DNA of 64,000 nt from NCBI RefSeq assembly GCF_003008695.1, contig NZ_PXZT01000008.1:1-64000 (forward strand). The letters run 5' to 3'. Below are positions 2,729 through 36,004 of this stretch, one piece after another (position 1 is the stretch's first letter; the number at the start of each line of letters is the position of its first letter). The notes below the pieces were generated by a model that saw only the letters and a list, made by a program, of their open reading frames with translations, did not search any database and had not been told where the DNA came from. This DNA is from Trichococcus alkaliphilus. GTDB taxonomy: Bacteria; Bacillota; Bacilli; Lactobacillales; Aerococcaceae. The position numbers were made by a program, and so were the translations under genes.

Positions 2729-2732
2729 ACAG

Positions 2733-3989
2733 ATGACAAAACCTATTGAAGAAGCATACACTTTAGCAAAACAAAAATACGCCGCCATCGGTGTGGATAC
2801 AGATGCAGTACTTGAAAAACTGAGCCAAATCAAGGTTTCATTGCAATGCTGGCAAGGGGACGATGTATTGGGATTCATGTTCCCTGATCAAGCCTTGACC
2901 GGCGGGATTTCCGTCAGCGGCAACTACCCAGGCAAAGCAACGACACCAGCACAACTGCGTGCCGATTTGGATAAAGCTTTGAGCCTGATCCCCGGTAACC
3001 ATAAAGTGAATCTGCATGCCATCTATGTGGATACAGACGAAAAAATCGACTTGGATCAGATCGAACCGAAGCACTACGGAAAATGGGTGCAATGGGCAAA
3101 AGAAAAAGGTCTTGGATTGGATTTCAACCCTACCTGCTTCTCACATCCAAAATCGACAGACGGCACGTTGTCCAGCAGCGACCCTGAAACACAAGCATTC
3201 TGGATCGAGCACGTGAAACGCAGTCGTAAAGTGGCCGCTTACTTCGGCGAAGAACTGAACCAAACTTGCGTAAACAACATCTGGATCCCGGATGGCTACA
3301 AAGACAATCCAATCGACAAAATGTCTCCGCGTGTACGCCTGCGCGATGCGTTGGATCAATGTTTGGAAGAGAAATTCGATGATGCGCACATGTTGGACGC
3401 AGTCGAAGGAAAACTCTTCGGCATCGGTGCTGAAAGCTTCACGACCGGTTCCAACGATTTCTACCTGTCTTACGCATTAACAAGGGACATCTTGTGGACA
3501 ATTGATGCGGGACATTTCCACCCAACCGAGGATGTTTCCGATAAATTCACGGCCTTCCTGCCTTTCGGCAAAGGTTTGATGCTGCACGTGAGCCGTCCGA
3601 TTCGTTGGGATTCCGATCACGTGGTCATCTTGGATGAAGCGACTACCCGCATCGGCGAAACATTGGTGCGCAACGACTTGTTGGACAAAACGTTCATCGG
3701 CATGGACTTCTTCGATGCAACAATCAACCGTGTCGCAGCCATGGTCATCGGCGCGCGCAGCACCTTGAAATCCTTGTTGTTGGGTATGTTGAGCCCGATC
3801 GAAACATTGAAGGATGCCGAAAGCACTGGCGACTTCACAACACGTTTGGCTGTCACGGAAGAAATGAAATCTTATCCATTCGGCGCTGTCTGGGAATTCT
3901 ATTGCCAACAACAAAATGTTCCGGCTGGTACGGAATGGCTGACTGAAGTAAAAAACTACGAACAAAAAATTCTGACGGAACGTAAATAA
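2733..3989 (+). CDS. rhaA: L-rhamnose isomerase
   Basis: This 418-residue metal-dependent isomerase converts L-rhamnose to L-rhamnulose. Its sequence follows known RhaA proteins closely (SLQCWQGDDVLGF near the N-terminus, NPTCFSHPKS, NNIWIPDGYKD, TIDAGHFHPTE, with metal-binding Glu/Asp/His residues). A TTG at 2718 would add five residues, but ATG at 2733 has GGAG about 9 bases upstream and gives the usual N-terminus, so I prefer it. It is the second gene of the operon, 16 bases before rhaD. Confidence 0.96.
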   Translation: MTKPIEEAYTLAKQKYAAIGVDTDAVLEKLSQIKVSLQCWQGDDVLGFMFPDQALTGGISVSGNYPGKATTPAQLRADLDKALSLIPGNHKVNLHAIYVDTDEKIDLDQIEPKHYGKWVQWAKEKGLGLDFNPTCFSHPKSTDGTLSSSDPETQAFWIEHVKRSRKVAAYFGEELNQTCVNNIWIPDGYKDNPIDKMSPRVRLRDALDQCLEEKFDDAHMLDAVEGKLFGIGAESFTTGSNDFYLSYALTRDILWTIDAGHFHPTEDVSDKFTAFLPFGKGLMLHVSRPIRWDSDHVVILDEATTRIGETLVRNDLLDKTFIGMDFFDATINRVAAMVIGARSTLKSLLLGMLSPIETLKDAESTGDFTTRLAVTEEMKSYPFGAVWEFYCQQQNVPAGTEWLTEVKNYEQKILTERK

Positions 3990-4005
3990 GGGGGAAACCA
4001 TCAAA

Positions 4006-4821
4006 ATGAAAAACATTTTAGAAGCACCATTCATCAAAGAAGTCATGCTGTTGACGGACGTCATGTACAAATTCGGCTGGCACGAAAGAAACAGCGGCAA
4101 CTTGTCCTACTTGCTGAAAGAAGAGGAAATCACGGAATATCTGGATCTTAACGAAGTGAAACGCAACATTCCGATCGCTTTCGACGGAAAAGCTTTGGCC
4201 GGGAAATATTTCTTGGTCACCGGAACAGGTAAATTCTTCAAAAACGTCATCCATGACCCGGCTGATGTCTTGGGAATCCTGAAAGTGACTGCGGAAGGCA
4301 ACAGTGTAGACCTGTTATGGGGATACGAAAATGGAGCGGCTCCTACAAGCGAATTGCCTGCTCATTTGATGTCACACATTTCGCGCTTGTCGGTCGATCC
4401 TGAAAACCGTGTCGTTTACCACTGCCACGCCACTAACCTGTTGGCGATGTCATTCTCTTGCGAGTTGGATGAAAGAAGCTTCACGCGCATCCTTTGGAAA
4501 ATGTGTACTGAGTCATTGGTCGTGTTCCCTGAAGGCGTGGGCATCCTGCCTTGGTTGATGCCTGGAACGAACGAAATTGGCGAAGCAACTGCTGAGAAAA
4601 TGAAGGAGTACCGTCTGATCGTATGGCCGCACCATGGTTTGTATGCAGCCGGAAAAGATTTGGAAGAGTGCTTCGGTTTGGTCGAAACTGCTGAAAAATC
4701 AGCTACAGTATACACGCTTGTACAATCACAAGGCGGCATCAGACAGGAAATCACTGATGAGCAATTAAGCAATCTGGGCAAACGTTTCTCTGTAACCCCA
4801 AGAGCGGGTTACTTGAAATAA
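4006..4821 (+). CDS. rhaD: L-rhamnulose-1-phosphate aldolase
   Basis: This 271-residue class II aldolase splits L-rhamnulose-1-phosphate into DHAP and L-lactaldehyde. Visible landmarks are NLSYLL near residue 31, the zinc-site histidines in VVYHCHATN (about residue 140) and WPHHGLYAAG near 205. The AAGGGGG ribosome-binding site is close to the ATG. The stop codon TAA at 4819-4821 is directly followed by the left end of a TnpB element. That element now separates rhaD from fucO, which would otherwise start about 30 bases downstream. Confidence 0.95.
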   Translation: MKNILEAPFIKEVMLLTDVMYKFGWHERNSGNLSYLLKEEEITEYLDLNEVKRNIPIAFDGKALAGKYFLVTGTGKFFKNVIHDPADVLGILKVTAEGNSVDLLWGYENGAAPTSELPAHLMSHISRLSVDPENRVVYHCHATNLLAMSFSCELDERSFTRILWKMCTESLVVFPEGVGILPWLMPGTNEIGEATAEKMKEYRLIVWPHHGLYAAGKDLEECFGLVETAEKSATVYTLVQSQGGIRQEITDEQLSNLGKRFSVTPRAGYLK

Positions 4822-6165
4822 GTGCTGCCGCAATTTCGTGACTTCAGTCATGAGTTAGGCAGCACGGTCTGGTTTCATTCTTTTTGTTTTGTGAACGCAT
4901 GTTCGTAGGTGTATAATGAAGCCAAAGAGGTGCGTATCATGCTAAAAGCCTATCAGTTCCGCTTGTATCCCAATCAGGAACAGAAAATTTATTTCGCCAA
5001 TTGTTTTGGCTCCGCACGGTTCATCTTCAATCAGATGTTGGCTAACCGAAAAGAAATTTACGAAACCTATAAAGATGACAGAGAACTGCTGAAAGCCATC
5101 AATCCGAGGACCTATACTTCCTTCAAAGAAGAATTTCCGTTCCTGAAAGAAGTGGACAACCTGGCTTTGGCGAATGCCGGCCAAAACCTGAATAAGGCCT
5201 ACCAGAATTTCTTCCGCGACAAGTCTGTCGGTTTTCCGAAATTCAAAGCCAAGCACAAATCAAAAGCATCCTACACCACCAACAACCAGGGCGGAACCAT
5301 CCGCATCGAAAACGGAAAAATCAGACTGCCGAAGATTGGTTTCGTCACAATCAAACAGCACCGGGATTTTGATGGGCTAATCAAATCCTGCACGATTTCG
5401 ATGAACAAGGCCGGCAACTACTTCATTTCTATTTTGGTGGAACAAGAAACGCCTGAATGGCTACCGGCGGAACATAAGATCGGCATCGATCTTGGCCTTT
5501 CCGATTTTGCCGTCACCACAAATGATGCGGGCAACATCGAAAAACACCCGAATCCAAAGTGTTTGCGGAAATCCGAAAAGAAAGTCAAGAAAGCCCAACG
5601 CGCCTTGTCCCGCAAGCAAAAAGGCAGCAAGAACCGTGAAAAGGCACGCTTAGTACTTGCCAAAAAACACGAAAAGATTGCGAACCAACGCAAGGACTTC
5701 CTGCACAAACTCTCCAACCGGATCACAGACGAAAACCAAGTCATCGTGATCGAGACGTTGCGGAGCTCCAATCTGATGAAGAACCACAGACTTGCGAAAG
5801 CAATCGGGGATGTCAGTTGGTTCGAATTCAGCCGACAGTTGGCGTACAAAGCGGAATGGAAAGGCCGAACGCTCATCAAGGCGGACAGGTTCTATCCGTC
5901 CAGCCAAATTTGTTCCGCTTGTGGACACCGCGACGGCAAGAAGGCTTTGCATATCCGTGATTGGACCTGTCCGAACTGCGGCACAACCCATGACCGGGAC
6001 ATCAATGCCAGCAAGAACCTCTTGGCTTTGGCCAAGTAAAAAAACCACTGAGGCAGGGACTGCCTTTTGAGCCTACTCCATATCCATTCCCGCTGTCTGT
6101 AAAGACATCCGCAGGCAAGGAAGGAGGTCGTAGGAAGCTCGCGACTTGAGTCGTAAGTAGTTCAC
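4822..6165 (+). mobile_element. IS200/IS605-type solo TnpB element (IS1341-like)
   Basis: The element carries tnpB but no tnpA. The left end has an 8-bp inverted repeat, GTGCTGCC (4822-4829) and GGCAGCAC (4858-4865), enclosing a TGACT..AGTCA hairpin. The right end has GAAGCTCGCGACTTGAGTCG followed by TAAGTAGTTCAC ending near 6165; a small hairpin before GTAGTTCAC is the usual right end of this group. Removing 4822-6165 would join the rhaD stop to the fucO leader. The left boundary is less certain than the right, and the target motif cannot be assigned from one copy. Confidence 0.75.
4939..6039 (+). CDS. tnpB: TnpB, RNA-guided nuclease of an IS605-group element
   Basis: This 366-residue TnpB has a basic N-terminal domain (MLKAYQFRLYPN, the N-terminal helix-turn-helix region) and a split RuvC nuclease. 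The RuvC residues are intact: Asp184 in GIDLGLSDFAVTT, Glu272 in VIETLRSSN and Asp354 in DRDINASKNLL. Between the last two lies a CxxC...CxxC zinc finger (CSACG and CPNCG). The start was chosen at the ATG giving MLKAYQF; an upstream in-frame start at 4909 lacks family similarity. The gene appears undamaged, so an active nuclease is likely. No TnpA is in the window, so mobility would need a helper in trans. Confidence 0.93.
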   Translation: MLKAYQFRLYPNQEQKIYFANCFGSARFIFNQMLANRKEIYETYKDDRELLKAINPRTYTSFKEEFPFLKEVDNLALANAGQNLNKAYQNFFRDKSVGFPKFKAKHKSKASYTTNNQGGTIRIENGKIRLPKIGFVTIKQHRDFDGLIKSCTISMNKAGNYFISILVEQETPEWLPAEHKIGIDLGLSDFAVTTNDAGNIEKHPNPKCLRKSEKKVKKAQRALSRKQKGSKNREKARLVLAKKHEKIANQRKDFLHKLSNRITDENQVIVIETLRSSNLMKNHRLAKAIGDVSWFEFSRQLAYKAEWKGRTLIKADRFYPSSQICSACGHRDGKKALHIRDWTCPNCGTTHDRDINASKNLLALAK

Positions 6166-6185
6166 CATCTAATCTTATCAAAAGG
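6040..6185 (+). ncRNA. Probable omega RNA (reRNA) of the TnpB element with its guide
   Basis: In this family the guide RNA is made from the 3' end of tnpB plus the right end of the element and runs into flanking DNA. Here the non-coding stretch after tnpB holds hairpins (GGCAG/CTGCC at 6052-6064; CGACT/AGTCG at 6142-6153). The flank that would serve as guide is CATCTAATCTTATCAAAAGG (6166-6185), which reaches the fucO ribosome-binding site. The 5' boundary is not determinable and probably lies inside tnpB. Presence and ends are inferred from family knowledge. Confidence 0.5.
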
Positions 6186-6197
6186 GGATAACGCAAA

Positions 6198-7355
6198 ATG
6201 GCAACTTTTTATGTACCAGCAACAAACCTTATCGGAATAGGCTGCATCAAGGAATTAGGCAGCAATGTGAAGGATCTTGGCTACAAGAAAGCTTTGTTCG
6301 TTACGGATAACTTCTTGGCCAAAAGCGAAATGATTGACGTTGTCTTGGCAGAATTGGACAAAGCCGCTATCGATTATGTGATTTATGTGGATGTCGATCC
6401 GAACCCGACCTGCAAAAACGTGAATGAAGGCGTGGCTATGGCGCAAGCGGAAAACTGCGACTTCATCATTTCCTTCGGCGGCGGTTCTCCGCAGGATGCA
6501 GCGAGCGCTATCAGCATCATCCTGACGAACGGCGGCAAACCGCAGGATTACGAAGGTTTGCATAAATCGGCAAAGGCCGGCTTACCGGTTGTGGCAATCA
6601 ACACGACTGCCGGAACATCCGCTGAAATCACGATCAACTACGTCATCACCGACGAAGATCGCAAAGTGAAGATGGTTATGGTCGACAAAAACAGCTTGGC
6701 GAAGATTTCCGTGAACGACCCTGAATTGATGCTGACGATGCCGAAATCATTGACTGCGGCGACCGGGATGGATGCTTTGACGCATGCGATCGAATCGATG
6801 GTAACGCCTGGCGCTTACCCTGTGACCGAAGTCTTGGCTTCCGGAGCGATCGAATTGATCCGCGAATACTTGCCGAAAGCTGTAGAAAACGGAACTGACT
6901 TGGATGCGCGCGACAAAATGGTCAACGCCATCTTCTTGGGCGGAATGGCATTCAACAATGCCGGCCTTGGTTATGTGCATTCGATGGCTCACCAATTGGG
7001 TGCCGTCTACCACTTGCCGCACGGTGTCTGCTGTGCGATGCTGTTGCCGATCGTGGAAGCTGAAAATGCTAAATTTGCACCTGAACGTTTCCGCAAAGTA
7101 GCGAAAGCATTAGGATTGGCAGTGACAGCTGACGTATCCGATCAAGCCTGCGCAGACTACACGGTCGAAGAAATCAAACGTTTGTCCAAAGTTGTCGGTA
7201 TTCCAACATCATTGAATGAGCTGGGCATCAAGGAAGAGGAATTCGATTATGACTACCTGTCCAAAAATGCCATGATCGATGCCTGCGCACCAGGAAACCC
7301 ATTCACTCCGACATTAGAAGAAACGATTGCGATGTACAAAAAATTGTTCCAATAA
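6198..7355 (+). CDS. fucO: Lactaldehyde reductase (L-1,2-propanediol oxidoreductase)
   Basis: This 385-residue iron-dependent (group III) alcohol dehydrogenase most likely reduces the L-lactaldehyde made by RhaD to L-1,2-propanediol, regenerating NAD+. Visible are the NAD-binding stretch SFGGGSPQDAASA (about residues 94-106), the metal-binding histidines in DALTHAIES and in GYVHSMAHQLGAVYHLPHGVC (quoted here only as landmarks), and the INTTAGTSAE segment. The start has AAGGGG upstream. It is the last gene of the rhamnose operon, followed by a terminator at 7434-7473. The TnpB element upstream might alter its expression. Confidence 0.9.
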   Translation: MATFYVPATNLIGIGCIKELGSNVKDLGYKKALFVTDNFLAKSEMIDVVLAELDKAAIDYVIYVDVDPNPTCKNVNEGVAMAQAENCDFIISFGGGSPQDAASAISIILTNGGKPQDYEGLHKSAKAGLPVVAINTTAGTSAEITINYVITDEDRKVKMVMVDKNSLAKISVNDPELMLTMPKSLTAATGMDALTHAIESMVTPGAYPVTEVLASGAIELIREYLPKAVENGTDLDARDKMVNAIFLGGMAFNNAGLGYVHSMAHQLGAVYHLPHGVCCAMLLPIVEAENAKFAPERFRKVAKALGLAVTADVSDQACADYTVEEIKRLSKVVGIPTSLNELGIKEEEFDYDYLSKNAMIDACAPGNPFTPTLEETIAMYKKLFQ

Positions 7356-11270: not shown

Positions 11271-11314
11271 AAAAAGAGAGCTCCCGCCATTTCCGGCGGG
11301 AGCTCTCTTTTTTT
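11271..11314. terminator. Bidirectional terminator between metF and the helicase gene
   Basis: The arms AAAAAGAGAGCTCCCGCC and GGCGGGAGCTCTCTTTTT are perfect, with A and T runs at both ends. It serves both the metEF operon and the convergent helicase gene. Confidence 0.95.
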
Positions 11315-11315
11315 C

Positions 11316-12599: not shown

Positions 12600-12843
12600 A
12601 TGGTTCTCCTTCAGCATGTTCTACATGCATTTGATTTTAGTGGGTATGTTTCGGGTCAGGCCAGTTTGGGAAAGAGAGTGGGACTCTCGTTTGCCAAATT
12701 CCTCACCGCGAAACGTTATATAGGTTCTCTGAGCAACAGCGTGACTGGCCTACTATATCACAAATGGAAGCAAAAGTCATAGCATTCCGCTTTTGGGTGG
12801 AATAATAAGGGTGCAAACAAGGCACGAAAGAGTAGTCAAACCC

Positions 12844-12876
12844 GAAAAAAGCCCGCCAAAATCAATTTGGCGGGCT
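12844..12876 (-). terminator. Terminator of the RpiR-type regulator
   Basis: GCCCGCC and GGCGGGC arms (12851-12875) are followed on the minus strand by a run of six T. Confidence 0.9.
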
Positions 12877-12913
12877 AGCATATAGAATTTTCGTCAGAAT
12901 CCCTCGACAGGTC

Positions 12914-14012: not shown

Positions 14013-14045
14013 GAGGCCATGCAAGAGAAATGGAGGAATTATCTT

Positions 14046-15062: not shown

Positions 15063-15081
15063 TATTAGGAGGTTATAAAAA

Positions 15082-16404: not shown

Positions 16405-16459
16405 AAATTCAATAAAATATTAATTGGAATACAAAGAATCGAAAAAGGGGTCATACATT

Positions 16460-18773: not shown

Positions 18774-21521
18774 ATGGAAATCATGGATATAAAATTTAAT
18801 GGCATTGTGGAACCTATCGGGTATCATTTTGAGCCATTGATTGTCAGTTGGGCGATCGACAACGGGTTAGGGAAAATGCAAAAAGAGGCAAGTCTCCAGG
18901 TAGCTGCCGATCACGAATTCAAGGATATTGTGCTTGAGAAAAATGGTGATTTGGACAGTTCAGGGGAAACGTTGACGCTTCGGTTGAAGCCCAGAACACG
19001 CTATTATGTGCAGATTCGTGTAACTGCTGAAGATGGTGAATTGGCTGAATCGACAAGCTTTTTTGAGACAGGAAAAATGGATGAAGCCTGGGACGCTGAG
19101 TGGATCGGGCCGAAGGTGCAGGAAGAAATCCATCCGATTCTGTTCAAGGATTTCGAGCTGAGCCATCAAGTGAAGGAAGCCCGCCTGTATATCAGTGGGG
19201 TTGGGCTTTACGAAGCAAGCCTGAACGGAAAGAAGATCGGAAATGATGTGCTGGCGCCGTTCGTCAACAACTACGAAGCTTTCATCCAAATCCAAACGTA
19301 TGACGTAACAGAAGCCTTGGAGCAAAGCAATCAGCTGGCGATCATGTTGGGAAACGGCTGGTACAAAGGGAGATTCGGCCTAAGCGGCGAGAATGCTTAT
19401 TTCGGGGACAAATTTGCGGCAATCGCTGAACTGGTTGTGAGTTACGAAAACGGGACGGAAGAGCGGATCGCGACGGATCTCAGCTGGAAAGCGACGTTGA
19501 GCGATATCACGAACAGCGGTATCTATGATGGCGAAACGATCGACCGGACACTTGATAAAGCGGGGCGCAGTGATGAGGTGGCGATCGTCGGCATTCCAAA
19601 AGAAAAATTGAAGGACCGCGTAAGCCCGGGGTTGAGCATTCATGAAGTAGTGCCTTTGAAGGAAGTCATCAAGACCCCGAATGGCGAGACGGTCCTTGAT
19701 TTCGGGCAGAACTTTGCCGGCTGGCTAGCGTTTGATGCCGATTTTCCGGAAGGGACCGAGGTGCACTTTGAATTCGGGGAAATACTGCAGCAAGGCAATT
19801 TTTATAATGAGAATTACGGCACTGCCACAGCAGGCTTCCGTTACATTTCCAATGGAACAGCCGAAACGGTTCACCCGCATTTCACTTACTTTGGCTTCCG
19901 ATATGCGCGTGTGACGGGCTGGCCGGCAGACAAGCAAATAGCCGTGCGCGGGTTGGCCATCTATTCCGATATGACGCGAACAGGCATCATCGAAACGGGC
20001 AATGCTAAAGTGAATCAACTGTATTCAAACTCGCTTTGGGGGCTCAAATCAAACTTCCTCGATATGCCGACCGATTGTCCGCAAAGGGCTGAGCGTTTGG
20101 GCTGGACCGGGGACGCGCAAGTATTTGCCCCGACAGCAAGTTATCATATGGACACGCGCGCTTTTTACCGTAAATATCTGATCGATATGCGTACGGAACA
20201 GGAAAAGCTGTCGGGAAGCATCCCAAATTATATGCCGGCGATGGCTACTCAAGGTGGCGCAGCTGTCTGGGGAGATGCAGCGACGTTCATTCCTAAAGCT
20301 TTATGGACTGCCTATGGGAACAAGGAAGAAGTCGGGCAGTACTACCCGCTGATGAAAGACTGGGTGGATTGGACCGGTTCTAAAATCGAAAAAGCGCATG
20401 GTTCGAAAACGGAGCTCAATGCCGGTGGATTCCAGTTCGGGGATTGGCTGGCTTTGGATGGTGCGACTCCTTCATCATTCAAAGGAAGCACTGACGATAC
20501 GTTTATTGCTTCAGCTTATTATTATGAAAGTCTGTGCATCGTCGCGGACGTCGCAGCTTTGATTGGGAATGAGTCTGACGCGGCTTATTATCGCGGCCTC
20601 AGCGAACAAGTCCGGGAGCGGATCTTGTTCGAGTATGTGACCCCATCCGGACGCTTGTCCATCGACACCCAATCGGGGTACATCATTGCTTTGAAGTTCA
20701 AACTATTCCGTGAGCGCGGAGTGGTCATTGAGCAGCTGAAAACCCGGTTGAAAAAAGATCTGTATAAAATCAAATCCGGTTTCGTGGGGACTCCGATTTT
20801 TTGCCAAGTGCTGTCGGAGAATGGCATGGTCGATCTGGCCTATGAGTTCCTGCTCAATGAAGGCTTTCCGGGCTGGTTGTATGCGGTGAATCTTGGCGCG
20901 ACGACAATCTGGGAGCGCTGGAACAGCGTAATGCCTGATGGCACCATGAATCCTGCAGGCATGAATTCCCTGAACCACTACAGTTACGGATCTGTCATCG
21001 AGTTTGTCTATAAATACGTGGTGGGCATCCAACCGTTGGAAGCCGGTTTCCGTACCGCAAGATTAGCGCCCAATCCAAATGTAAAATTGGGATATGCCCG
21101 CGGAAGCTATCAGTCAGCTGCCGGCAGATTCGTCAGCGAATGGAAGATACTTAAAAATGGCGAACTGAGCTGCTATTTCGAAGTGCCTTTTGGCGCGCAG
21201 GCTGAAATCGTGTTGCCATACTCCGATCAGGAACCGATCAAAGTGGCGTCAGGCATTTACGAGTACACTTACCAACCGACAAAGGATCTGAGCGTGCTTT
21301 ATGATTCGGATACACGCCTTTCGACCATCAAGAACGAGAACAAGGAGCTGTTCGAAGAAATTTTGGGCATCCATGAACGCATCAGAGGCTTCATGGCATT
21401 TGCCGATGAAGAACAGCAGAACCTCTCATTGAAGCAACTTTCAAAATTATTTTACACTGGCATAACTGCAGAGATGGTAGCCGAGGCCGAAGGTATAATG
21501 AAAAAATCAAATCGCATCTGA
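18774..21521 (+). CDS. GH78 alpha-L-rhamnosidase (GH78-1)
   Basis: This 915-residue inverting glycosidase releases terminal L-rhamnose. It shows the usual order of N-terminal beta domains (about 1-330), an (alpha/alpha)6 catalytic barrel (about 390-740) and a C-terminal beta domain. The probable general acid is Glu440 in QRAERLGWTGD and the general base Glu714 in TTIWERW. The residue before Glu440 is Ala where most GH78 enzymes, including GH78-2 here, have Asp. There is no signal peptide, so the enzyme should act on imported rhamnosides. Its promoter differs from the other rhamnoside operons. The last about 60 residues form an extra helical tail. Confidence 0.93.
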   Translation: MEIMDIKFNGIVEPIGYHFEPLIVSWAIDNGLGKMQKEASLQVAADHEFKDIVLEKNGDLDSSGETLTLRLKPRTRYYVQIRVTAEDGELAESTSFFETGKMDEAWDAEWIGPKVQEEIHPILFKDFELSHQVKEARLYISGVGLYEASLNGKKIGNDVLAPFVNNYEAFIQIQTYDVTEALEQSNQLAIMLGNGWYKGRFGLSGENAYFGDKFAAIAELVVSYENGTEERIATDLSWKATLSDITNSGIYDGETIDRTLDKAGRSDEVAIVGIPKEKLKDRVSPGLSIHEVVPLKEVIKTPNGETVLDFGQNFAGWLAFDADFPEGTEVHFEFGEILQQGNFYNENYGTATAGFRYISNGTAETVHPHFTYFGFRYARVTGWPADKQIAVRGLAIYSDMTRTGIIETGNAKVNQLYSNSLWGLKSNFLDMPTDCPQRAERLGWTGDAQVFAPTASYHMDTRAFYRKYLIDMRTEQEKLSGSIPNYMPAMATQGGAAVWGDAATFIPKALWTAYGNKEEVGQYYPLMKDWVDWTGSKIEKAHGSKTELNAGGFQFGDWLALDGATPSSFKGSTDDTFIASAYYYESLCIVADVAALIGNESDAAYYRGLSEQVRERILFEYVTPSGRLSIDTQSGYIIALKFKLFRERGVVIEQLKTRLKKDLYKIKSGFVGTPIFCQVLSENGMVDLAYEFLLNEGFPGWLYAVNLGATTIWERWNSVMPDGTMNPAGMNSLNHYSYGSVIEFVYKYVVGIQPLEAGFRTARLAPNPNVKLGYARGSYQSAAGRFVSEWKILKNGELSCYFEVPFGAQAEIVLPYSDQEPIKVASGIYEYTYQPTKDLSVLYDSDTRLSTIKNENKELFEEILGIHERIRGFMAFADEEQQNLSLKQLSKLFYTGITAEMVAEAEGIMKKSNRI

Positions 21522-21524
21522 CAC

Positions 21525-21557
21525 AAAAAGCAAAGGCCCAAAAGCCTTTGCTTTTTT
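21525..21557 (+). terminator. Terminator of GH78-1
   Basis: AAAAGCAAAGGC and GCCTTTGCTTTTTT arms with a short loop. It lies directly before the ribosome-binding region of AraC-2. Confidence 0.9.
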
Positions 21558-21603
21558 GGAGGGAGTTGATAAAATGGGCATGAAGAACAGAGGAGTGAAA
21601 AAA

Positions 21604-22602
21604 ATGTCCGCAGCACAAGATGTTCTGGAAAACTTGCTGGAAGAAACACCGCTTGAAGTTGAAATGAAAACCATGACGGCGGAACAAATAACCGCTAAAT
21701 TCCAAAATCAAGCGGCAACAGCCGGCTATCTGCTTGATTTCCATTTGTCTGATGAGGATTTTTTTGTGGACCATCAAATCTTCATGAACCGGCATGCCCG
21801 CTATTTTGCCATGCCCACCCATTCGCATGCATTTCTCGAGCTGAATTACCTTCTGCAAGGGCAATGCACCCAGTGGATCGGTCAGGAAAAAATCCAGATG
21901 AAGCAGGGCGATTTGCTGATGATCGATCCGGGAACCGGCCATTCCATCGATAAACTCGGTGAACAGGACATCCTGATCAACATCTTGATCAAATCGGACG
22001 CCATCAACACGAAGGTACTCCAAAGGATGGCCCAGCGGCACAGTTTGATCACTGATTTTTTGTTGACAGTAGGCAAAAAAAATAGCCGTCACCGGCCCTA
22101 TCTGCATTTCAGCACGGCCGATAATCAGCGGATCAGCAATTGCCTGTCCTATTTGCTTACCGATTATTTTGGAGGGGAAACGCCTAAATTCGAGAAAGTG
22201 GAGCTTTGGTTATTGGTTATCCTGGCTGAACTGGAGGATATCATGTCAAGCGAAGCCGGGGAACTCCCTTTCAACAAGAAGGTGATCGATGCCCTGGAGA
22301 TCATCGACAGTGAATATGCCAGCATCACGCTGGAAGGCCTGGGGAAAAAGTTGAATTTCAACAAAAATTACCTCAGCAATCTGCTGAAGCAAGAAACGGG
22401 TCTGACCTTCAAAGAGTGGGTCACGAAACGAAGACTGCAAAAGTCCTACGATCTGCTGATCGGGACCGACAAACCTATCGAAAAAATCGTTGCAGAGCTT
22501 GGCATCACCAGCCCGAGTTATTTCTTCAAGATATTCAAGAATGAGTACGGAGAGACACCAAATCATATAAGGAAAAAAATGCACCGAAACAAAAAGCTAT
22601 GA
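21604..22602 (+). CDS. AraC-family transcriptional regulator (AraC-2)
   Basis: This 332-residue paralogue of AraC-1 and AraC-3 has an N-terminal extension (about 1-55), a cupin domain (MPTHSHAFLELNYLLQG, about 75-150) and a C-terminal AraC double helix-turn-helix (about 230-330, NFNKNYLSNLLKQETG). I prefer the ATG at 21604, with AGGAG 8 bases upstream, over earlier ATGs at 21574 and 21580, of which the first also has a GGAGGG site. It lies just after GH78-1 and immediately before the pgmB-GH3 promoter that carries the shared operator, its likely target. Confidence 0.9.
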   Translation: MSAAQDVLENLLEETPLEVEMKTMTAEQITAKFQNQAATAGYLLDFHLSDEDFFVDHQIFMNRHARYFAMPTHSHAFLELNYLLQGQCTQWIGQEKIQMKQGDLLMIDPGTGHSIDKLGEQDILINILIKSDAINTKVLQRMAQRHSLITDFLLTVGKKNSRHRPYLHFSTADNQRISNCLSYLLTDYFGGETPKFEKVELWLLVILAELEDIMSSEAGELPFNKKVIDALEIIDSEYASITLEGLGKKLNFNKNYLSNLLKQETGLTFKEWVTKRRLQKSYDLLIGTDKPIEKIVAELGITSPSYFFKIFKNEYGETPNHIRKKMHRNKKL

Positions 22603-22763: not shown

Positions 22764-23447
22764 ATGAGCGAAATAAAAGGATTGGTATTTGATTTGGACG
22801 GTGTCATCACCGATACAGCGGAACGGCATTATCTGGCATGGAAAGGGATAGCGGATCGATTGGGGATCGCGATCGACCGCGAATGGAACGAGCGCCTCAA
22901 AGGCATCAGCAGAACGGAATCCTTGGAACTGATATTGGCCGAGGATCCGACCCTTCTCCTTGATGGGGAAGAAAAAGAACAGCTGTTGGAAGAAAAAAAT
23001 GCGCATTATCTGGAGTTGATTGCGGAAATCACAGCAGCGGACATCCTGCCCGGGATTCCGGAACTTCTGGAAGAGGCCAAAAGCATAGGCTACCGCATGG
23101 CGATCGCCTCCGCCAGCAAAAATGCGCCGCTCATTCTGGAAAGGCTGGGTCTCTCGGCTGCCTTCGATGCCATCTTCGACCCGGAAGCTTTGACCTACAA
23201 CAAGCCGCATCCGGAGATCTTTGAAAGGGCGGCTCAGGCTTTGAGTCTGGAAACACACGCATGCATCGGCTTCGAAGATTCGTTGGCGGGCATCGAAGGG
23301 ATCAAACGGTCCGGTATGCCTGCCGTCGCCATCGGCATCCCAGCTTTTGGCGAGTGGCTCCCCGACATTGAAGTGACGGCTACAAAAGAATTAAACCTGA
23401 AAGAAATTGTGCGCGAAGTGACGATGAAGGAGCGTGTTGAAGGATGA
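22764..23447 (+). CDS. pgmB: Beta-phosphoglucomutase
   Basis: This 227-residue HAD-superfamily enzyme converts beta-D-glucose-1-phosphate to glucose-6-phosphate. The nucleophile is Asp9 and the acid/base Asp11 in FDLDGVITDTAERHYLAW, a beta-PGM-specific start. Further signs are the cap segment RLKGISRTESLELIL, IASASKNAP (HAD motif II, Ser) and IGFEDSLAGIEGI (motif IV). It is first in a two-gene operon: the GH3 gene starts inside its stop codon (ATGA overlap). That coupling suggests the GH3 enzyme supplies its substrate. No classical GH65 or GH94 phosphorylase is in the window. Confidence 0.94.
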   Translation: MSEIKGLVFDLDGVITDTAERHYLAWKGIADRLGIAIDREWNERLKGISRTESLELILAEDPTLLLDGEEKEQLLEEKNAHYLELIAEITAADILPGIPELLEEAKSIGYRMAIASASKNAPLILERLGLSAAFDAIFDPEALTYNKPHPEIFERAAQALSLETHACIGFEDSLAGIEGIKRSGMPAVAIGIPAFGEWLPDIEVTATKELNLKEIVREVTMKERVEG

Positions 23448-25123
23448 TCGATTTGAAGGGGAATCCTTTTTATCTGAAGGATGAACAAATAGCATGGGTA
23501 AACCGGACGTTGGCAAGCTTGACGTTGGATGAAAAAGTGGGGCAGCTGTTCTGCCCAATCGGCATGTTCACGGATGAAAAGGCGCTGTTTGACTTGGCTG
23601 TGAACAAAAAAATCGGCGGCTTGCTGTTCCGTCCTGGAAAAGGCGAAGAAGTGCAGGAAGCGCACCGCTATCTGCAACAACAGGCCAAGATTCCTTTGCT
23701 GATTGCAGCCAACTTGGAAGCGGGGGGTACAGGAAGCGCCGTTGACGGTACGCGCATCGGCAATCCGATGTTGTTGGCGGCTGGTCAGGATGCCGAATTT
23801 GGGCACCATCTCGGTGAAGTCTGCGCCAAGGAAGGTTCGGCGGTGGGCGTGAACTGGGCCTTCGCGCCGGTCGTGGACATCGATTACAATTTCCACAACC
23901 CGATCACGAATATACGCACGTACGGCAGCGATCCCGATACCGTCCTGAACTATGCGCAAGGATTCGTTGAAGGCGTGCAGAAAAACGGGGTGGCGGCTTC
24001 AATCAAGCACTTCCCCGGTGACGGCATCGACTTCCGCGATCAGCATCTGGTGACTACTGTCAACTCTTTGCCGCTTAAGGAATGGCGAAATACATACGGG
24101 AAAGTCTACTCGGGCCTGATTGAAGCAGGTGCGCTTTCGGTTATGATCGGCCATATCGCCTTGCCTGCTGTACAGAAATCAGAAGAAGATGCTTTTCTGC
24201 CGGCTACCTTATCTCCAGCCATTATGCAGGAACTATTGCGCAAGGAACTAGGATTCAACGGCGTCATCACAAGCGATGCGACGCCGATGGTCGGATTTTG
24301 CGCGGCGATGGAGCGGAGTTTGGCCGTCCCGACGGCGATTGCTGCCGGGTGCGATATCTTCTTATTCAACAAAGACTTGGAGGAGGATATCCGTTTCATG
24401 AAGGAAGGGATTGCGAACGGCATCCTGACATCAGAACGCATCGATGAAGCCGTCACCCGCATTCTGGCGATGAAGGCAGCCTTGCGCTTGCCAGAAAAAC
24501 AAGCGGAAGCAAGGTTGGTTCCGGAAAAAGAGGAACTGGCTGTCCTGCAAGCGGAACAACACGTCCAGTGGGCTACAGAATCCGCCGACAAAGGCATCAC
24601 CCTAGTTAAGGATACAGCCGGCAACCTGCCATTGCGCCCAGAAGCGACACCGCGTCTGTTGCTGCAACTGATCGGTCCATATGAAGAGTCGAACCGCCAG
24701 ATCTTTTTAAAAGTGCTGCCACTTTTGGAAAAAGAAGGCTTCATTGTGACGCTTTATCAGCCGGAAGATTTCACGACCGGATTCGAGACCGTTTCCCAGT
24801 TCCGTTCAAAATATGATGCTGTCCTCTATCTGGCCAATGTCGAAAACCGCAGCAACGCCACAACGACAAGAATCAACTGGTACACCTTCTTCGGTCTGGG
24901 AAACAATATCCCGTGGTTTGTCGATGAAGTACCGACCATATTCGCTAGCCTGGCCAATCCCTACCATCTGATGGATGTGCCGATGGTGAAGACCTACATC
25001 AATGCCTACGACAATCACCAGGTGGTCATCGAAGCGCTCGTAGCCAAGCTTCTGGGCAAGAGCGATTTCAAGGGTGTGAGTCCGATCGATCCTTATTGCG
25101 GGCTGATGGATGCCCGCAGATAG
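23444..25123 (+). CDS. GH3 family enzyme with His/Asp dyad (beta-glucosidase, beta-N-acetylglucosaminidase or phosphorylase)
   Basis: This 559-residue two-domain GH3 protein carries the NagZ-type signature KHFPGDGxxxxDxH at residues 188-201, with Asp199 and His201 as the acid/base dyad. The probable nucleophile is Asp278 in VITSDATPM. GH3 enzymes with this dyad have been shown in one case (Cellulomonas fimi Nag3) to work as retaining beta-glycoside phosphorylases. Coupling to pgmB through a 4-base overlap makes phosphorolysis to beta-glucose-1-phosphate attractive here. Hydrolysis of GlcNAc or glucose beta-linkages remains possible. There is no signal peptide, so action is cytoplasmic. A terminator follows. 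Confidence 0.88.
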   Translation: MIDLKGNPFYLKDEQIAWVNRTLASLTLDEKVGQLFCPIGMFTDEKALFDLAVNKKIGGLLFRPGKGEEVQEAHRYLQQQAKIPLLIAANLEAGGTGSAVDGTRIGNPMLLAAGQDAEFGHHLGEVCAKEGSAVGVNWAFAPVVDIDYNFHNPITNIRTYGSDPDTVLNYAQGFVEGVQKNGVAASIKHFPGDGIDFRDQHLVTTVNSLPLKEWRNTYGKVYSGLIEAGALSVMIGHIALPAVQKSEEDAFLPATLSPAIMQELLRKELGFNGVITSDATPMVGFCAAMERSLAVPTAIAAGCDIFLFNKDLEEDIRFMKEGIANGILTSERIDEAVTRILAMKAALRLPEKQAEARLVPEKEELAVLQAEQHVQWATESADKGITLVKDTAGNLPLRPEATPRLLLQLIGPYEESNRQIFLKVLPLLEKEGFIVTLYQPEDFTTGFETVSQFRSKYDAVLYLANVENRSNATTTRINWYTFFGLGNNIPWFVDEVPTIFASLANPYHLMDVPMVKTYINAYDNHQVVIEALVAKLLGKSDFKGVSPIDPYCGLMDARR

Positions 25124-25206: not shown

Positions 25207-26211
25207 ATGTTTGAACTGGACCGTTTTTTAAGGGAAGAAACCAAAGTCGAAAAAGAGCAGCGGAAGTCCGGGTTCAATGTGACCGATCCGGATATCCTCG
25301 ACGAACTGATTTTGAGTGGGAGTAAGTTCCGCTTGAATGGCGATTTCCTTCTGAGTGAGGAAATGTTCTTCAAAAAAGGCGACGTCAATATCCGTAAGCA
25401 TAATCGCTATTCCGATATGCCCTTGCACCACCATCAGTTCTTGGAATTGAACTATATGTATTCCGGATCTTGCACCCAGGAAGTCAGCGGTGAAAAAATC
25501 GTCCTCAACGAAGGGGACATCATCATGCTGGATCGGGGCAGTTCGCACTCCTTCCAAGCGTTGGGAGAAAACGACATCCTCATCAATGTCCTGTTGAAAG
25601 TGGAGACGATCAATACAAAAATCCTTCAGCAACTCGTGCGTAAACGCGGTGTATTGACTGAGTTTCTGGTGTTGGCAAGCCAACGCACCCATGAAGAGGA
25701 TCAGTTTTTGGTCTTCCGGACGGGAGAAAATACAAAAGTCCAAACCTTCATGCATTACATCCTGGAGGAATACTACGGCGGAGCTGAACCGAAGATAGAA
25801 GTGATCCACCTCTATCTTCCGTTGCTGTTCATGGAACTGGCGCGCACGTTCGAAGAAGAGACAAAAGGGCAGCAACGCCACCAGAATCAGGTTGTAACGG
25901 AAGCACTGGCGATCATCGAAAAGGATTATCGCACGCTTTCTTTGGAAATGCTGGCGCAACAATTGGGATTCAACAAAAATTATCTGGGGAATCTAATCAA
26001 AAAAGAGACGGGGGACACTTTCAAGCAATTGCTGCAGCGCCAACGCATGCTGCACGCACATCATCTGCTGGTCTTTTCAAATTATTCGATGGAGGAAATA
26101 TCCGAGGAAATCGGCTACCTGGACACGAGCTATTTCTTCCGGTCCTTCAAAAAAACGCACGGCAAGACGCCGGGGCAGGTCCGCGAGGAAGCGTTGCACC
26201 GGGACCTGTAG
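25207..26211 (+). CDS. AraC-family transcriptional regulator (AraC-3)
   Basis: This 334-residue third paralogue has a charged N-terminus (MFELDRFLREETKVEKEQRK, similar to AraC-1), a cupin domain with MPLHHHQFLELNY and a C-terminal AraC helix-turn-helix (FNKNYLGNLIKKETGDTF). The ATG at 25207 has GAGAGGAG upstream; a longer frame from 25096 runs through the upstream terminator and is rejected. The operator CCTGTAGTTTG of the next promoter overlaps its stop codon. It is therefore placed to control the symporter and GH78-2, and possibly the other rhamnoside operons. Confidence 0.9.
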   Translation: MFELDRFLREETKVEKEQRKSGFNVTDPDILDELILSGSKFRLNGDFLLSEEMFFKKGDVNIRKHNRYSDMPLHHHQFLELNYMYSGSCTQEVSGEKIVLNEGDIIMLDRGSSHSFQALGENDILINVLLKVETINTKILQQLVRKRGVLTEFLVLASQRTHEEDQFLVFRTGENTKVQTFMHYILEEYYGGAEPKIEVIHLYLPLLFMELARTFEEETKGQQRHQNQVVTEALAIIEKDYRTLSLEMLAQQLGFNKNYLGNLIKKETGDTFKQLLQRQRMLHAHHLLVFSNYSMEEISEEIGYLDTSYFFRSFKKTHGKTPGQVREEALHRDL

Positions 26212-26307: not shown

Positions 26308-27684
26308 ATGGCAACTGAAACAAGAATTTTGGACCAAGCAGATGAAAATAAGCTGCCGCTGAGCGAGAAGCTGACGTTCGGTTTTGGGAATCTGGCGGCC
26401 AATCTGATGCTTACGACGGCCAGTTCCTTCATCACTTATTACTATACCGATGTGGTCGGCCTGAGCGCAGTCATCGTCGGGAACATCCTCTTGTGGGCGC
26501 GAATTTTTGATGGCGCTTCTGATTTGGCGATGGGTGCGATCGTCGACAAGACGCGTTCGAAACACGGAAAAGCCAGGCCTTGGATTTTATGGATGGCGAT
26601 CCCTTATGCGTTTGCAATGATACTCTTATTCACTTCTCCGGATTTCCTGGGATCGACTGGTAAAGCCATCTATGCTTTTGTTACTTATGTGATTGCTTTG
26701 GCCGGTGTCTACACGGCGACGATGGTTCCCTATAACGCAATGATCGGTACTACGACCTCGAACCCTGTCGATCGCGGCAACCTATCGACATCCCGGACCC
26801 TGGCTGGATTTGTGGGGGCGATGGGAGTGACTGCAGTAGTTCTTCCGGTCGTCAACTTCTTTGGTGGTGATAAGCAGGCTTGGACGTGGATGGCAGCTGT
26901 TTTCGGTGTGATCTCGACAGTGCTGTTGCTGATCCTGTTCAAAAATTCGAAGGAACGCGTCATCGAGTCTACTGTAGCTTTCGAAAAGGTGCCGTTGAAA
27001 ACAAACATCCAGGCGTTGTTGCAGAATAAATACTGGATAATCATGATCTTGTATATGCTGATCAGTTTCATCAGTTCCGGTTTGCAAGGCATCAACATTT
27101 TCTATGCCCAATGGATTTTGGGGGATCCTGCGAAGGTGGCGGTGATCGGAATTCTGTCCTTCATGCCGATTGCGATAGGGGCAGTATTCATGCCGATACT
27201 GCTGAGCAAATTCAGCAAAAAGACGATCACTTTGGCCGGAGGCATCGTGATGATGGTTGGCTTACTGATCATCGCGGCGTTCCCGGAAAACTTTACGATG
27301 ATCATGGTTGGTTTGATTATCCGCGGACTCGGCATCGCGCCGGGAGCTGTTGCAGGCTTCGCCATGCTGGGTGACGTTGCCGATTACGGCGAATGGAAAA
27401 CGGGCATCCGCAGTGAAGGCTTGATTTTCTCGGCAGGAACGTTTGCCGAAAAAGTCGGCTCCGGAGTGGGCGGTCTGATTCTGGGTGTCGTTCTGGGACT
27501 TGGCGGCTATGTGTCACAAGGGGCAATGCAATCCGCGGAAGCTTTATTCGCAATCAAGGCGATCTTCGCATACATACCGATCGCGTTCACAGCAATCTGC
27601 ATTTTGTTGATCCTGTTCTATGACTTGGACAAAAAACTTCCTGAAATTGCGGAAGACTTGAAAGCGAAACGAGTGAACGGATAA
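26308..27684 (+). CDS. GPH-family sugar:cation symporter
   Basis: This 458-residue transporter of the glycoside-pentoside-hexuronide family has 12 predicted membrane segments. Family signs are LSEKLTFGFGNLAANLML at the N-terminus, FDGASDLAMGAIVDKTRSKHGKARPWILW (given here as landmark, about residues 68-96) and a DVADYGEWKTG motif after TM10. By context it should import rhamnose or a rhamnosyl glycoside with H+ or Na+. It lacks the PTS EIIA-like domain that some GPH members carry. AAAGGAG precedes the ATG. GH78-2 follows 55 bases later, past a hairpin. Confidence 0.92.
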   Translation: MATETRILDQADENKLPLSEKLTFGFGNLAANLMLTTASSFITYYYTDVVGLSAVIVGNILLWARIFDGASDLAMGAIVDKTRSKHGKARPWILWMAIPYAFAMILLFTSPDFLGSTGKAIYAFVTYVIALAGVYTATMVPYNAMIGTTTSNPVDRGNLSTSRTLAGFVGAMGVTAVVLPVVNFFGGDKQAWTWMAAVFGVISTVLLLILFKNSKERVIESTVAFEKVPLKTNIQALLQNKYWIIMILYMLISFISSGLQGINIFYAQWILGDPAKVAVIGILSFMPIAIGAVFMPILLSKFSKKTITLAGGIVMMVGLLIIAAFPENFTMIMVGLIIRGLGIAPGAVAGFAMLGDVADYGEWKTGIRSEGLIFSAGTFAEKVGSGVGGLILGVVLGLGGYVSQGAMQSAEALFAIKAIFAYIPIAFTAICILLILFYDLDKKLPEIAEDLKAKRVNG

Positions 27685-27739: not shown

Positions 27740-30604
27740 ATGAATATATATAATCTGAAAACCAATCACATCCTGAATCCCATCGGCTTTTTGATGGACA
27801 CAGTGACATTATCGTGGATAATTGACGCACCGTTTGAGGAAGAACTGCAGGGGACCCGTGTCCTCATCGCGCTGGATGAGAACTTTGAAGAAGTCATCCA
27901 CGACAGCGGGATGCATAGCGATTTGGATCCGCTGTGCTATCAACCGAAAATCAATCTTCTGCCGCGCACACGCTACTTCTGGAAAGTGACCGTGAAGAAC
28001 GCTGGCGGAGCTGAACATTCTTCTGCAGTCCAGTTCTTCGAGACGGCGAAGGAAGAGGAACAATGGACCGGGAAATGGATCGAACCTGCCCGTCAGTTGG
28101 AACGGATGCCGCTTGTGCGGAAACAGTTCACTTTGTCTTCAAAACCGATCCGCAAGGCGCGCGTTTATGCGACAGGATTGGGCATTTATGAACTGTACCT
28201 GAACGGAGAAAAAATCGGCGACGAATATTTGGCTCCCGGTTTCCATTCCTATGATTTTTGGCAGCAATACCAGACGTACAATGTGACTGCTGCCCTTAAA
28301 GCGGACGGCAACGCCATCGGCTTCATGCTGGGGGACGGATGGTACAAAGGCCGCTTCGGTTTCGACGGCGGATACGAAGACTTGTACGGGGACCAGTTCC
28401 GTCTGATTGCGGAATGCATCGTCACCTATGAGGATGGAACGGAAGAAATCATCGCCAGCGATGATTCGTGGGAAGTCGCGGAGGGACCACTTGTCTCCAG
28501 CAGCATCTACGACGGGGAATTCTATGACGCGAACCTTGAAATCGATGGATGGAATGAATACAGTGAAGCAGAAGCAGACGCCCGTTGGGAAGCGATGCAA
28601 CTGAGCGACGCAAACAGGGAAAAACTTCAAGCGCGATTGAGTGTTCCTGTCAAAATCGTGGATGCCTTCGTTCCGGAATTGATCCTGACGCCGGCAGGGG
28701 AACAGGTACTGGACTTCAAACAGAACATGACCGGATGGGTCACCTTCACCTCGGATGTGCCAAAAGGAACAATCATCACCTATGAAGTCGGCGAAGTGCT
28801 GCAGGAAGACAACTTCTACCGCGATAATCTGCGCACGGCGGAAGCGAAATTCACCTACATCAGCAACGGAAAGACTGCAGAAGTGCGTCCGTACTTCACT
28901 TTCTACGGCTTCCGCTACGCCAAAATAACCGGTGTTGATCTTTTGAACCAGGATTTCGGCTTCAAGGGGTATGTATTGCAGAGCGAACTGGAAGAGACGA
29001 GCGGCATGATCACAGCCAATCCGGATGTGAACCAATTGCTGAAGAATGCGCTTTGGGGGCAAAAAGGCAATTTCCTGGATGTGCCGACGGATTGCCCGCA
29101 ACGGGATGAGCGCATGGGCTGGACAGGCGATGCGCAGATTTTTGCCCGCACAGCCAGCTATAATATGCATACACCGGCTTTCTACAAAAAATTCATGCAC
29201 GATCTGCGTCTAGAGCAAAAAGCGCTCAATGGATCCGTTCCATTTGTGGTTCCGCAGATCAAACCGAAAGATGATGCCGGTTTTGTGACCGGTGCCGGAG
29301 CCGCGGCCTGGTCGGATGCGGCGACGGTCATTCCATGGGTACTCTATGAGCAGTACGGGGATCGTTCCTTGCTGAAGGAACAATATCAAACCATGAAGGA
29401 TTGGGTGGACTATATCGTTCGCGAAGATATGAAATCCGGAGGCAAACGCCTTTGGACGACCGGCTTCCAGTTCGGCGACTGGTTGGCGTTGGACGGGGAC
29501 AATCCGCACTCGCCGATGGGGGGCACTGATACGTCGCTGGTTGCATCCGTGTACTACTATCATTCGGTTTCCTTGCTGGCGCGGGCCGCTGAGGTTTTGG
29601 GAAATGCGCATGATGCGTTGGCGTACACCAAATTGGCTGGGGAAGTGAAAAAAGCCATCCAAAACGAATACTTGACCACCACGGGACGCTTGGCGGTAAC
29701 GACCCAGACTGCCTACATCCTGTTCCACTACTTCGATCTCTGCCCGGAGACGTTCAAAGAGCGGATGACGAAAGACTTCTATGATAAAGTCATATCCAGC
29801 GGTGTACACCTGCAGACCGGGTTCGTCGGGACGCCGTATTTTGCGGAAGCTTTGAGCAAGAACGGGATGAACGAATTGGCGTATGGTTTGTTGCTGAATG
29901 AGGACTATCCGAGCTGGTTGTTCGCGGTTAAAATGGGTGCGACCACCATCTGGGAACGCTGGAACTCGATTCTACCGGACGGGAAAATCTCCGGAACGGA
30001 TATGAACTCATTGAACCACTATGCTTATGGATCGATTGTGGAGTGGTTGTACCGTTGCGTCCTGGGCATCCAGGCAGACAGCGAGCAGCCAGGATACAAA
30101 CATTTCTTCCTGACGCCGCAACCAAGTGCGCAGTTGGGCAAAGCGGAAGGCTATTACCACTCCGTTTCCGGCCGTATCGAAAGCGCGTGGGAACTATTGG
30201 CGGACGGACAATTGGATTTCGTATTCCGCGTGCCTTTCGGGACGACCGCAACCATCACCCTGCCGGATCTGTCGCTTGCAGAAGCGCAGAAAACGAAGTG
30301 GCTCGAAGCTGCGATCGCTGCTGAGGATGGGGTAACAGTAACTGTCATAGCAGGTGAATACCGCGTCACGTACATGCCGACCCGGAACTATCGCCCTGAA
30401 GTCACAACCGAGTTGTCTTTCCGCGAGTTGCTGGAGTACACACCGGCCCGAAAAGTGATCTTCGAACAGTTGCCGATGATGCGCAACAACGATATCGCCT
30501 TGCAGTATCTGGATGTGCCGTTGGAGACATTTAAGGAGTTGCCGATCCTTTCCAATTTTGTCAGCGAACAAGCGTTGGAACGGATGAATGCGTCTTTTGC
30601 CTGA
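27740..30604 (+). CDS. GH78 alpha-L-rhamnosidase (GH78-2)
   Basis: This 954-residue enzyme is a paralogue of GH78-1 with the same domain order: N-terminal beta domains (about 1-350), an (alpha/alpha)6 barrel (about 405-770) and a C-terminal beta domain. The motif QRDERMGWTGD places the general acid at Glu457. The general base is Glu739 in TTIWERW. No signal peptide is present, so substrates must be imported, presumably by the symporter encoded just upstream. It differs from GH78-1 in having the usual Asp before the acid Glu and an insert near residue 520. Aglycone or linkage preference cannot be told from sequence. Confidence 0.94.
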   Translation: MNIYNLKTNHILNPIGFLMDTVTLSWIIDAPFEEELQGTRVLIALDENFEEVIHDSGMHSDLDPLCYQPKINLLPRTRYFWKVTVKNAGGAEHSSAVQFFETAKEEEQWTGKWIEPARQLERMPLVRKQFTLSSKPIRKARVYATGLGIYELYLNGEKIGDEYLAPGFHSYDFWQQYQTYNVTAALKADGNAIGFMLGDGWYKGRFGFDGGYEDLYGDQFRLIAECIVTYEDGTEEIIASDDSWEVAEGPLVSSSIYDGEFYDANLEIDGWNEYSEAEADARWEAMQLSDANREKLQARLSVPVKIVDAFVPELILTPAGEQVLDFKQNMTGWVTFTSDVPKGTIITYEVGEVLQEDNFYRDNLRTAEAKFTYISNGKTAEVRPYFTFYGFRYAKITGVDLLNQDFGFKGYVLQSELEETSGMITANPDVNQLLKNALWGQKGNFLDVPTDCPQRDERMGWTGDAQIFARTASYNMHTPAFYKKFMHDLRLEQKALNGSVPFVVPQIKPKDDAGFVTGAGAAAWSDAATVIPWVLYEQYGDRSLLKEQYQTMKDWVDYIVREDMKSGGKRLWTTGFQFGDWLALDGDNPHSPMGGTDTSLVASVYYYHSVSLLARAAEVLGNAHDALAYTKLAGEVKKAIQNEYLTTTGRLAVTTQTAYILFHYFDLCPETFKERMTKDFYDKVISSGVHLQTGFVGTPYFAEALSKNGMNELAYGLLLNEDYPSWLFAVKMGATTIWERWNSILPDGKISGTDMNSLNHYAYGSIVEWLYRCVLGIQADSEQPGYKHFFLTPQPSAQLGKAEGYYHSVSGRIESAWELLADGQLDFVFRVPFGTTATITLPDLSLAEAQKTKWLEAAIAAEDGVTVTVIAGEYRVTYMPTRNYRPEVTTELSFRELLEYTPARKVIFEQLPMMRNNDIALQYLDVPLETFKELPILSNFVSEQALERMNASFA

Positions 30605-35977: not shown

Positions 35978-36004
35978 GAACAAGCACCTAAGAGGAGAGA
36001 TCAT

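Follow-up and report, generated by a model that had tools for sequence, protein, structure and literature searches.

An overlapping pgmB-GH3 gene pair in Trichococcus alkaliphilus suggests a phosphorolytic route for beta-glucosides

Trichococcus alkaliphilus carries, on a 64,000-nucleotide stretch of contig NZ_PXZT01000008.1 (hereafter the window), a beta-phosphoglucomutase gene, pgmB (22764..23447, forward strand; 227 amino acids), and directly behind it a gene for a GH3 family protein (23444..25123, forward strand; 559 amino acids). According to the coordinates of the open reading frames (ORFs), the stop codon of pgmB and the start codon of the GH3 gene share the four nucleotides ATGA (23444..23447, forward strand), and the two genes are likely translationally coupled. 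The GH3 protein very probably works in the cytoplasm as a retaining phosphorylase of beta-glucosides, of the BglX/BglP type, and would feed beta-glucose-1-phosphate to PgmB, probably as part of a route for rhamnosyl-glucosides. A first-pass annotation of the window had reported the ATGA overlap, which is indeed present, and had predicted that phosphorolysis by the GH3 enzyme provides the substrate of PgmB; this prediction is supported by the grouping of the protein with BglX/BglP and by the pairing of GH3 and pgmB genes across phyla. Its description of the genes as fused was too strong: these are two overlapping genes and not one protein.

Judged by its full-length sequence, its modelled fold and its position in phylogenetic trees, the window GH3 is a member of the BglX/BglP group of beta-glucoside phosphorylases. 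The protein matches PF00933 with 226.5 bits, and its closest solved structure is 5VQD, entitled 'beta-glucoside phosphorylase BglX' (48% identity; the match spans residues 7-558 and scores 523.8 bits), followed by YbbD with 161.6 bits. An AlphaFold2 model based on a 33-sequence alignment (mean predicted local distance difference test score, pLDDT, 94.6) superimposes on 5vqe with a template modelling score of 0.93 (Z 57.6, root mean square deviation 1.7 over 544 residues); YbbD is next in the structure ranking (Z 50.2, deviation 3.1). The first-pass annotation had named Nag3 as precedent, but the closest characterised relative in the structure search is BglX/BglP (5VQD). The window GH3 reaches the cut-off of no NCBIfam model, including the NagZ-type model NF003740 (122.2 bits, cut-off 207).

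GH3 loci were surveyed in one genome per species. There were at least 591 pattern matches, of which 564 were confirmed; the 80 of these that most resembled the query alignment were kept. An unrooted tree without outgroup (98 rows) separates 72 rows, including the window GH3 and BglX, from the remaining 26 with a Shimodaira-Hasegawa-like approximate likelihood ratio test (SH-aLRT) value of 99; we call the 72 the BglX group and the 26 the sister group, the tree leaving open on which side the root lies. The acid/base dyad of the window GH3, Asp199-Gln200-His201 (24038..24046, forward strand; motif KHFPGDGIDFRDQH), and its expected nucleophile Asp278 (24275..24277, forward strand) were found in the alignments just as the first-pass annotation had given them. 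Asp199, Gln200 and His201 are kept in all 72 BglX-group proteins and Asp278 in 71. The glutamine between the dyad residues is also present in BglX, while the aligned YbbD has a serine. Macdonald et al. reportedly found in 2018 that an active-site glutamine favours glucose over N-acetylglucosamine (GlcNAc); by our own assignment, Gln200 may be this residue.

For the 63 loci of the BglX group, which span four phyla, pgmB genes were called with a four-sequence pgmB profile (at least 150 bits) and counted as adjacent when on the same strand and within 300 bp between stop-to-stop frames; flanks were up to 8 kb, shorter at contig ends. Locus L134, which carries both groups, was set apart, and L003-L056 and L137-L146 are outside the locus counts. 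pgmB is adjacent to the GH3 gene in 31 loci (downstream in 25, upstream in 6). In another 8 it lies at a greater distance within the flank, 15 loci have none in the flank, and 9 are undecidable at contig ends. This is the adjacency that the first-pass annotation had suggested looking for in other genomes. The surveyed hosts include Lachnospiraceae, Oscillospiraceae, Paenibacillus, Neobacillus, a Vibrio and metagenome-assembled genomes of Treponema and Acholeplasmatales, and the same gene pair recurs in unrelated bacteria from gut, sludge and soil. On the BglX-group tree (52 rows) the state changes between adjacent and absent at least ten times, indicating that the pairing is not a single frozen accident. 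A second, quick tree that includes three long outgroup sequences (101 rows; support by SH-aLRT only) has three groups, one of 26 rows, one of 31 that contains the window protein and one of 41 that contains 5VQD; it labels L011 and L015 as NONE on the basis of 1.5-kb flanks, and larger fetches place pgmB 3.2-3.3 kb off in these loci.

Closer to the window, 8 of 13 genomes searched within the genus, the own genome included, have an orthologue of the window GH3 (89-100% identity), and pgmB adjoins it in all eight. The pairing is not a matter of chance, given these eight genomes and its recurrence in distant ones. A search at E 1e-80 found BglX-type or sister-group GH3 proteins in 31 of 76 genomes of the family that the window comes from.

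The partner gene is a true beta-phosphoglucomutase gene by profile: the window PgmB scores 238.6 bits with the NCBIfam equivalog model TIGR01990 (cut-off 189.4), and its nearest solved structures are those of the Lactococcus lactis enzyme (5olw/1lvh, E 3e-50). An alignment of the window pgmB with 38 of the 40 members of its cluster (A2), which covers 26 of the 31 adjacent loci, has nine positions that are invariant across all 39 sequences: Asp10, Asp12, Thr18, His22, Arg50, Ser116, Lys147, Glu171 and Asp172. We take their catalytic roles to be those of the corresponding residues in L. lactis beta-phosphoglucomutase. TIGR01990 matched all 39 sequences at E 0.001, and single tests of 30 adjacent pgmBs (all of the 31 but L120) put every one above the cut-off, the lowest with 216.5 bits; these matches rule out that PgmB is a general HAD phosphatase. 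Many GH3-linked beta-phosphoglucomutases of the survey (for example L085, L083 and L067) read DLDGVI[VC][SF]TDxYHY, unlike the GH65-linked enzyme of the own genome, which reads DLDGVITDTAKFHF. The GH3-linked enzymes may form a subgroup of their own, to judge from these motifs.

The gene order around the pair is GH78, AraC, pgmB, GH3, AraC, GPH symporter, GH78, all on the forward strand. The upstream neighbours are a GH78 alpha-L-rhamnosidase (18774..21521; PF17389 with 357 bits, PF08531, PF05592) and an AraC-family regulator with a cupin domain (21556..22602; PF12833, PF07883). Downstream follow a second AraC-family regulator (25207..26211; PF12833; the ORF is listed from a TTG at 25096, with the ATG at 25207 in frame), a GPH-family cation:glycoside symporter that is likely an importer (26308..27684; TIGR00792 with 352 bits, cut-off 231.35) and a second GH78 alpha-L-rhamnosidase (27740..30604; PF17389 with 395 bits). 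A scan for promoters and terminators between 18500 and 30900 gave no excess over shuffled sequences (13 found, mean 12.8; 14 found, mean 13.8). Further upstream, Pfam matches identify an L-rhamnose catabolism cluster (1280..7355, forward strand) of an FGGY kinase (1280-2728), RhaA (2718-3989), a class II aldolase (4006-4821) and an iron-containing alcohol dehydrogenase (Fe-ADH, 6198-7355); from the gene order, the kinase would be rhamnulokinase, the aldolase RhaD and the Fe-ADH lactaldehyde reductase. An IS605 OrfB/TnpB-type gene (4909-6039, forward strand; PF01385, PF07282) lies between the aldolase and Fe-ADH genes.

In the route that we propose, the GPH symporter would import a rhamnosyl-glucoside and the two GH78 enzymes would strip off the rhamnose, leaving a beta-glucoside as the probable substrate of the GH3 enzyme. 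Asp278 would attack the glucoside to form a covalent alpha-linked glucosyl-enzyme, while the Asp199/His201 dyad would protonate the leaving aglycone. The dyad, in place of a bare carboxylate, would then admit phosphate for attack on the intermediate, and the resulting beta-D-glucose-1-phosphate would be converted to glucose-6-phosphate by PgmB without the need for a kinase. One ATP per glucose would be spared in comparison with hydrolysis followed by glucokinase, and the freed rhamnose would enter the RhaA pathway encoded at 1280-7355. A crude hydropathy scan found no strong hydrophobic N-terminal stretch in the two GH78 enzymes, PgmB or the GH3 protein, in agreement with a cytoplasmic route. 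As the first-pass annotation had stated for classical phosphorylases, no glycoside phosphorylase family besides the window GH3 was found among 40 Pfam-scanned window proteins, a set that is smaller than that of all ORFs.

Pfam matches mark two further groups of genes in the window. A phosphotransferase system (PTS) EIIC gene (PF02378, 15082-16404) is flanked by two Gfo/Idh/MocA oxidoreductase genes (14019-17437 in all), and the region 34913-41904 encodes an UlaG-like lactonase, a PTS EIIC-GAT permease, a xylose-isomerase-like protein and a transketolase, which may form a PTS operon for ascorbate or a pentose.

Several observations weigh against the proposed route. In PMC6572805, LpqI, a GH3 enzyme with the dyad, is described as giving no detectable difference under the phosphate conditions of Nag3, and a second dyad GH3 is cited as being without phosphorolysis. 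The dyad alone is thus no proof of phosphorolysis; the case for it is built on the grouping with BglX and on the genome context. The 80 survey loci are no random sample but lean towards the query, and the outgroup tree does not resolve the root order of the groups of 26, 31 and 41, that is, of the two BglX-group halves and the sister group. The 15 loci with no pgmB in the flank include L096, whose GH3 comes closest to BglX (65%). In favour of the link with PgmB, 14 of the 15 genomes with such a locus were searched (all but L093) and 12 have a beta-phosphoglucomutase over the cut-off elsewhere, compared with 17 of 101 genomes in a phylum draw (Fisher 5.5e-7), a baseline that is not lineage-matched to these genomes, and with 3 of 14 control genomes; against it, the remaining two, L082 and L104, have none over the cut-off anywhere. 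Finally, the module is rare in an even phylum draw (E 1e-130, at most four candidates scored per genome), since only 2 of 299 genomes, G000 and G129, were positive. Both have pgmB beside the GH3 gene (in G129, beta-phosphoglucomutase at C13:35801-36358 and GH3 at C13:36389-38074). In the family of G129, picked because G129 was positive, 7 of 151 genomes from three genera were positive, and all seven have pgmB beside GH3, which speaks for the pairing.

The substrate is the part of the proposal with the best alternative: the GH3 protein could be a phosphorylase of a disaccharide or cello-oligosaccharide instead of the GH78 product, with the rhamnosidases as mere neighbours. The PTS EIIC gene of the window at 15082-16404 would fit, as the PF02378 family includes cellobiose permeases. 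BglP itself phosphorolyses cello-oligosaccharides, and a table entry lists aryl glucosides, according to the part of the review PMC8950772 that treats it. GH78 genes, which form two clusters in the survey, were found in 28 of the 63 BglX-group loci and in 0 of 16 sister-group loci; the 35 BglX-group loci in which GH78 was not found speak for this alternative, and rhamnosyl-glucosides cannot then be the only substrate class. On the other side stand the 28 loci with GH78, the GH78 genes that flank the window pair on either side and a second cluster of GH78, BglX-type GH3 and pgmB on contig C25 of the own genome. We regard this alternative as rather unlikely.

It is very unlikely that the GH3 protein is mainly a hydrolase (a beta-glucosidase or N-acetylglucosaminidase) that has retained the dyad and that pgmB serves another phosphorylase. 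GH65 enzymes, which invert alpha-glucosides, are another source of beta-glucose-1-phosphate, and the own genome has two GH65 genes, on contigs C25 and C17, both outside the window contig. Only the one on C25 has pgmB beside it (C25:45398-47373 for the pair), the one on C17 lying near a contig end without pgmB; the GH65 at C25:45398 thus already has its own adjoining pgmB. The third pgmB of the genome, besides this one and that of the window, clusters with GH78 at C25:85288, and another BglX-type GH3 follows 13 kb on; in the related genome G060 pgmB is 407 bp from the counterpart of that GH3 gene. In the survey, a profile from four GH65 genes found no GH65 in the flanks (up to 8 kb) of the 31 adjacent loci, which speaks against GH65 as hidden partner of the adjacent pgmBs. 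The first-pass annotation had raised the possibility that the adjacency is confined to this lineage, with an unrelated phosphorylase in the regulon. This does not hold: the pairing crosses four phyla and the GH65 genes are on other contigs. GH65 was found in 2 of the 63 BglX-group loci (L106 and L112), and the distant pgmB of L106 is right behind a GH65 ORF and belongs to it, a further point against a general link of pgmB with GH3. The GH3 of L106 (7986-9548), with two GH65 ORFs nearby, has a gap at the nucleophile Asp278 and is possibly a decayed gene. Against an enzyme for GlcNAc stands Gln200, where YbbD has Ser, if the glutamine has the role described above. In favour of a hydrolase, LpqI is one despite its dyad, as stated in PMC6572805; against it, the closest characterised enzyme to the window GH3 is a phosphorylase.

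Chance adjacency can be dismissed: sugar genes generally cluster, but the survey rules this out with 31 of 63 loci adjacent, 7 of 7 in the family of G129, the repeated state changes on the tree and a sister group in which pgmB adjoins the GH3 gene in three loci only (L062, L081 and L090), each time between the BglX-group and the sister-group GH3 gene.

The 26 sister-group proteins all have Asp199 and His201, and 22 have Gln200, but most of them lack four residues seen in the BglX group, Tyr462, Ser470, Asn471 and Tyr507. They are often found with hexuronate genes (UxaC, UxuA, KDPG aldolase, PfkB kinase): UxaC or UxuA is present in 11 of 16 sister-group loci and a HAD protein of about 300 amino acids in 8 of 16. 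By stop-to-stop frames, the HAD gene is -9 to 78 bp from the GH3 gene in L024, L026, L027 (L026 and L027 are near copies), L032, L035, L115, L117, L133 and L135, and overlaps it in L062; at L049, L081, L090, L111, L121, L124 and L125 the two are 923 to 5502 bp apart. In L062 (Gemmiger formicilis, 7734-12986) four genes stand in a row: BglX-group GH3, pgmB, sister-group GH3 and a second HAD. The own genome has three sister-group GH3 genes, C18:205470-207155 (L035), C18:233610-235361 (L034) and C3:45120-46844 (L036), and only L035 shows hexuronate genes and the HAD.

The HAD protein, of an undescribed subfamily, has the motif DSDGxAxDxMxxK, no sequence match in the PDB at 0.01 and, for three members, no NCBIfam match at 0.01. 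Its AlphaFold2 model (pLDDT 88.5) resembles many HAD phosphatases and beta-phosphoglucomutases (Z 19.6 to about 17 among the best 50), and the structure does not tell the reaction because the two kinds of enzyme score close together. Glucuronide use has a precedent in GH3, since the structure of SN243 (7qea) holds a glucuronide ligand, according to its title. We tentatively suggest, as a possibility that is rather doubtful, that the BglX superclade of dyad GH3s is a general set of phosphorolytic tools for beta-glycosides, in which every type has a HAD partner to handle its sugar-1-phosphate: the BglX group would pair with beta-phosphoglucomutase for glucose, often after removal of rhamnose, and the sister group would be beta-glucuronide phosphorylases with a HAD that clears glucuronate-1-phosphate.

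The window GH3 shares full-length homology, fold, the KHFPGDG...RDQH dyad region and the nucleophile Asp with BglX/BglP (AUG44408.1; 5VQD, 5VQE), reportedly described as a GH3 beta-glucoside phosphorylase by Macdonald et al. in 2018. We know of no pathway for BglP. According to an excerpt of the review PMC8950772, BglP is from a metagenomic clone, whereas the gene of the window GH3 stands together with pgmB, GH78 genes and that of a GPH importer; the same excerpt names Nag3 and BglP as the only characterised GH3 phosphorylases and states that their His/Asp acid/base lets phosphate into the active site. Cellulomonas fimi Nag3 is, like the predicted window enzyme, a His/Asp-type GH3 with phosphorolysis (reported in the same excerpt of PMC8950772), but it is directed at hexosaminides, as a GlcNAc phosphorylase. 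NagZ, YbbD and LpqI share the Asp-His dyad with the window GH3 but hydrolyse GlcNAc glycosides, and YbbD, with Asp-Ser-His, has only 162 bits to it. Phosphorylases beside pgmB are also found with the maltose, trehalose and kojibiose phosphorylases of GH65, as in the C25:45398-47373 pair; those are inverting enzymes for alpha-glucosides, while the window enzyme would be of a retaining type for beta-glucosides. GH3 beta-glucoside phosphorylases (2018) and phosphorylase-PgmB operons are thus each already known. The coupling of a GH3 phosphorylase with pgmB, with or without GH78, was in none of the open-access matches listed, judged by titles and the starts of abstracts, and Macdonald et al. may mention pgmB; the view of the first-pass annotation that the coupling is not well described holds to this extent, the GH3 phosphorylases themselves being published.

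It is disputed whether GH3 enzymes with the His/Asp dyad work as phosphorylases in living cells. Pairing with a consumer of beta-glucose-1-phosphate, recurring across phyla, points to a likely physiological role for the BglX type and offers a direct genetic test of it. The pgmB context would also serve as a simple genome rule to tell GH3 phosphorylases from hydrolases; the window GH3 exceeds no NCBIfam cut-off. For anaerobic bacteria of gut, rumen and sludge, the gene pair suggests an ATP-saving route for rhamnosyl-glucosides of plants.

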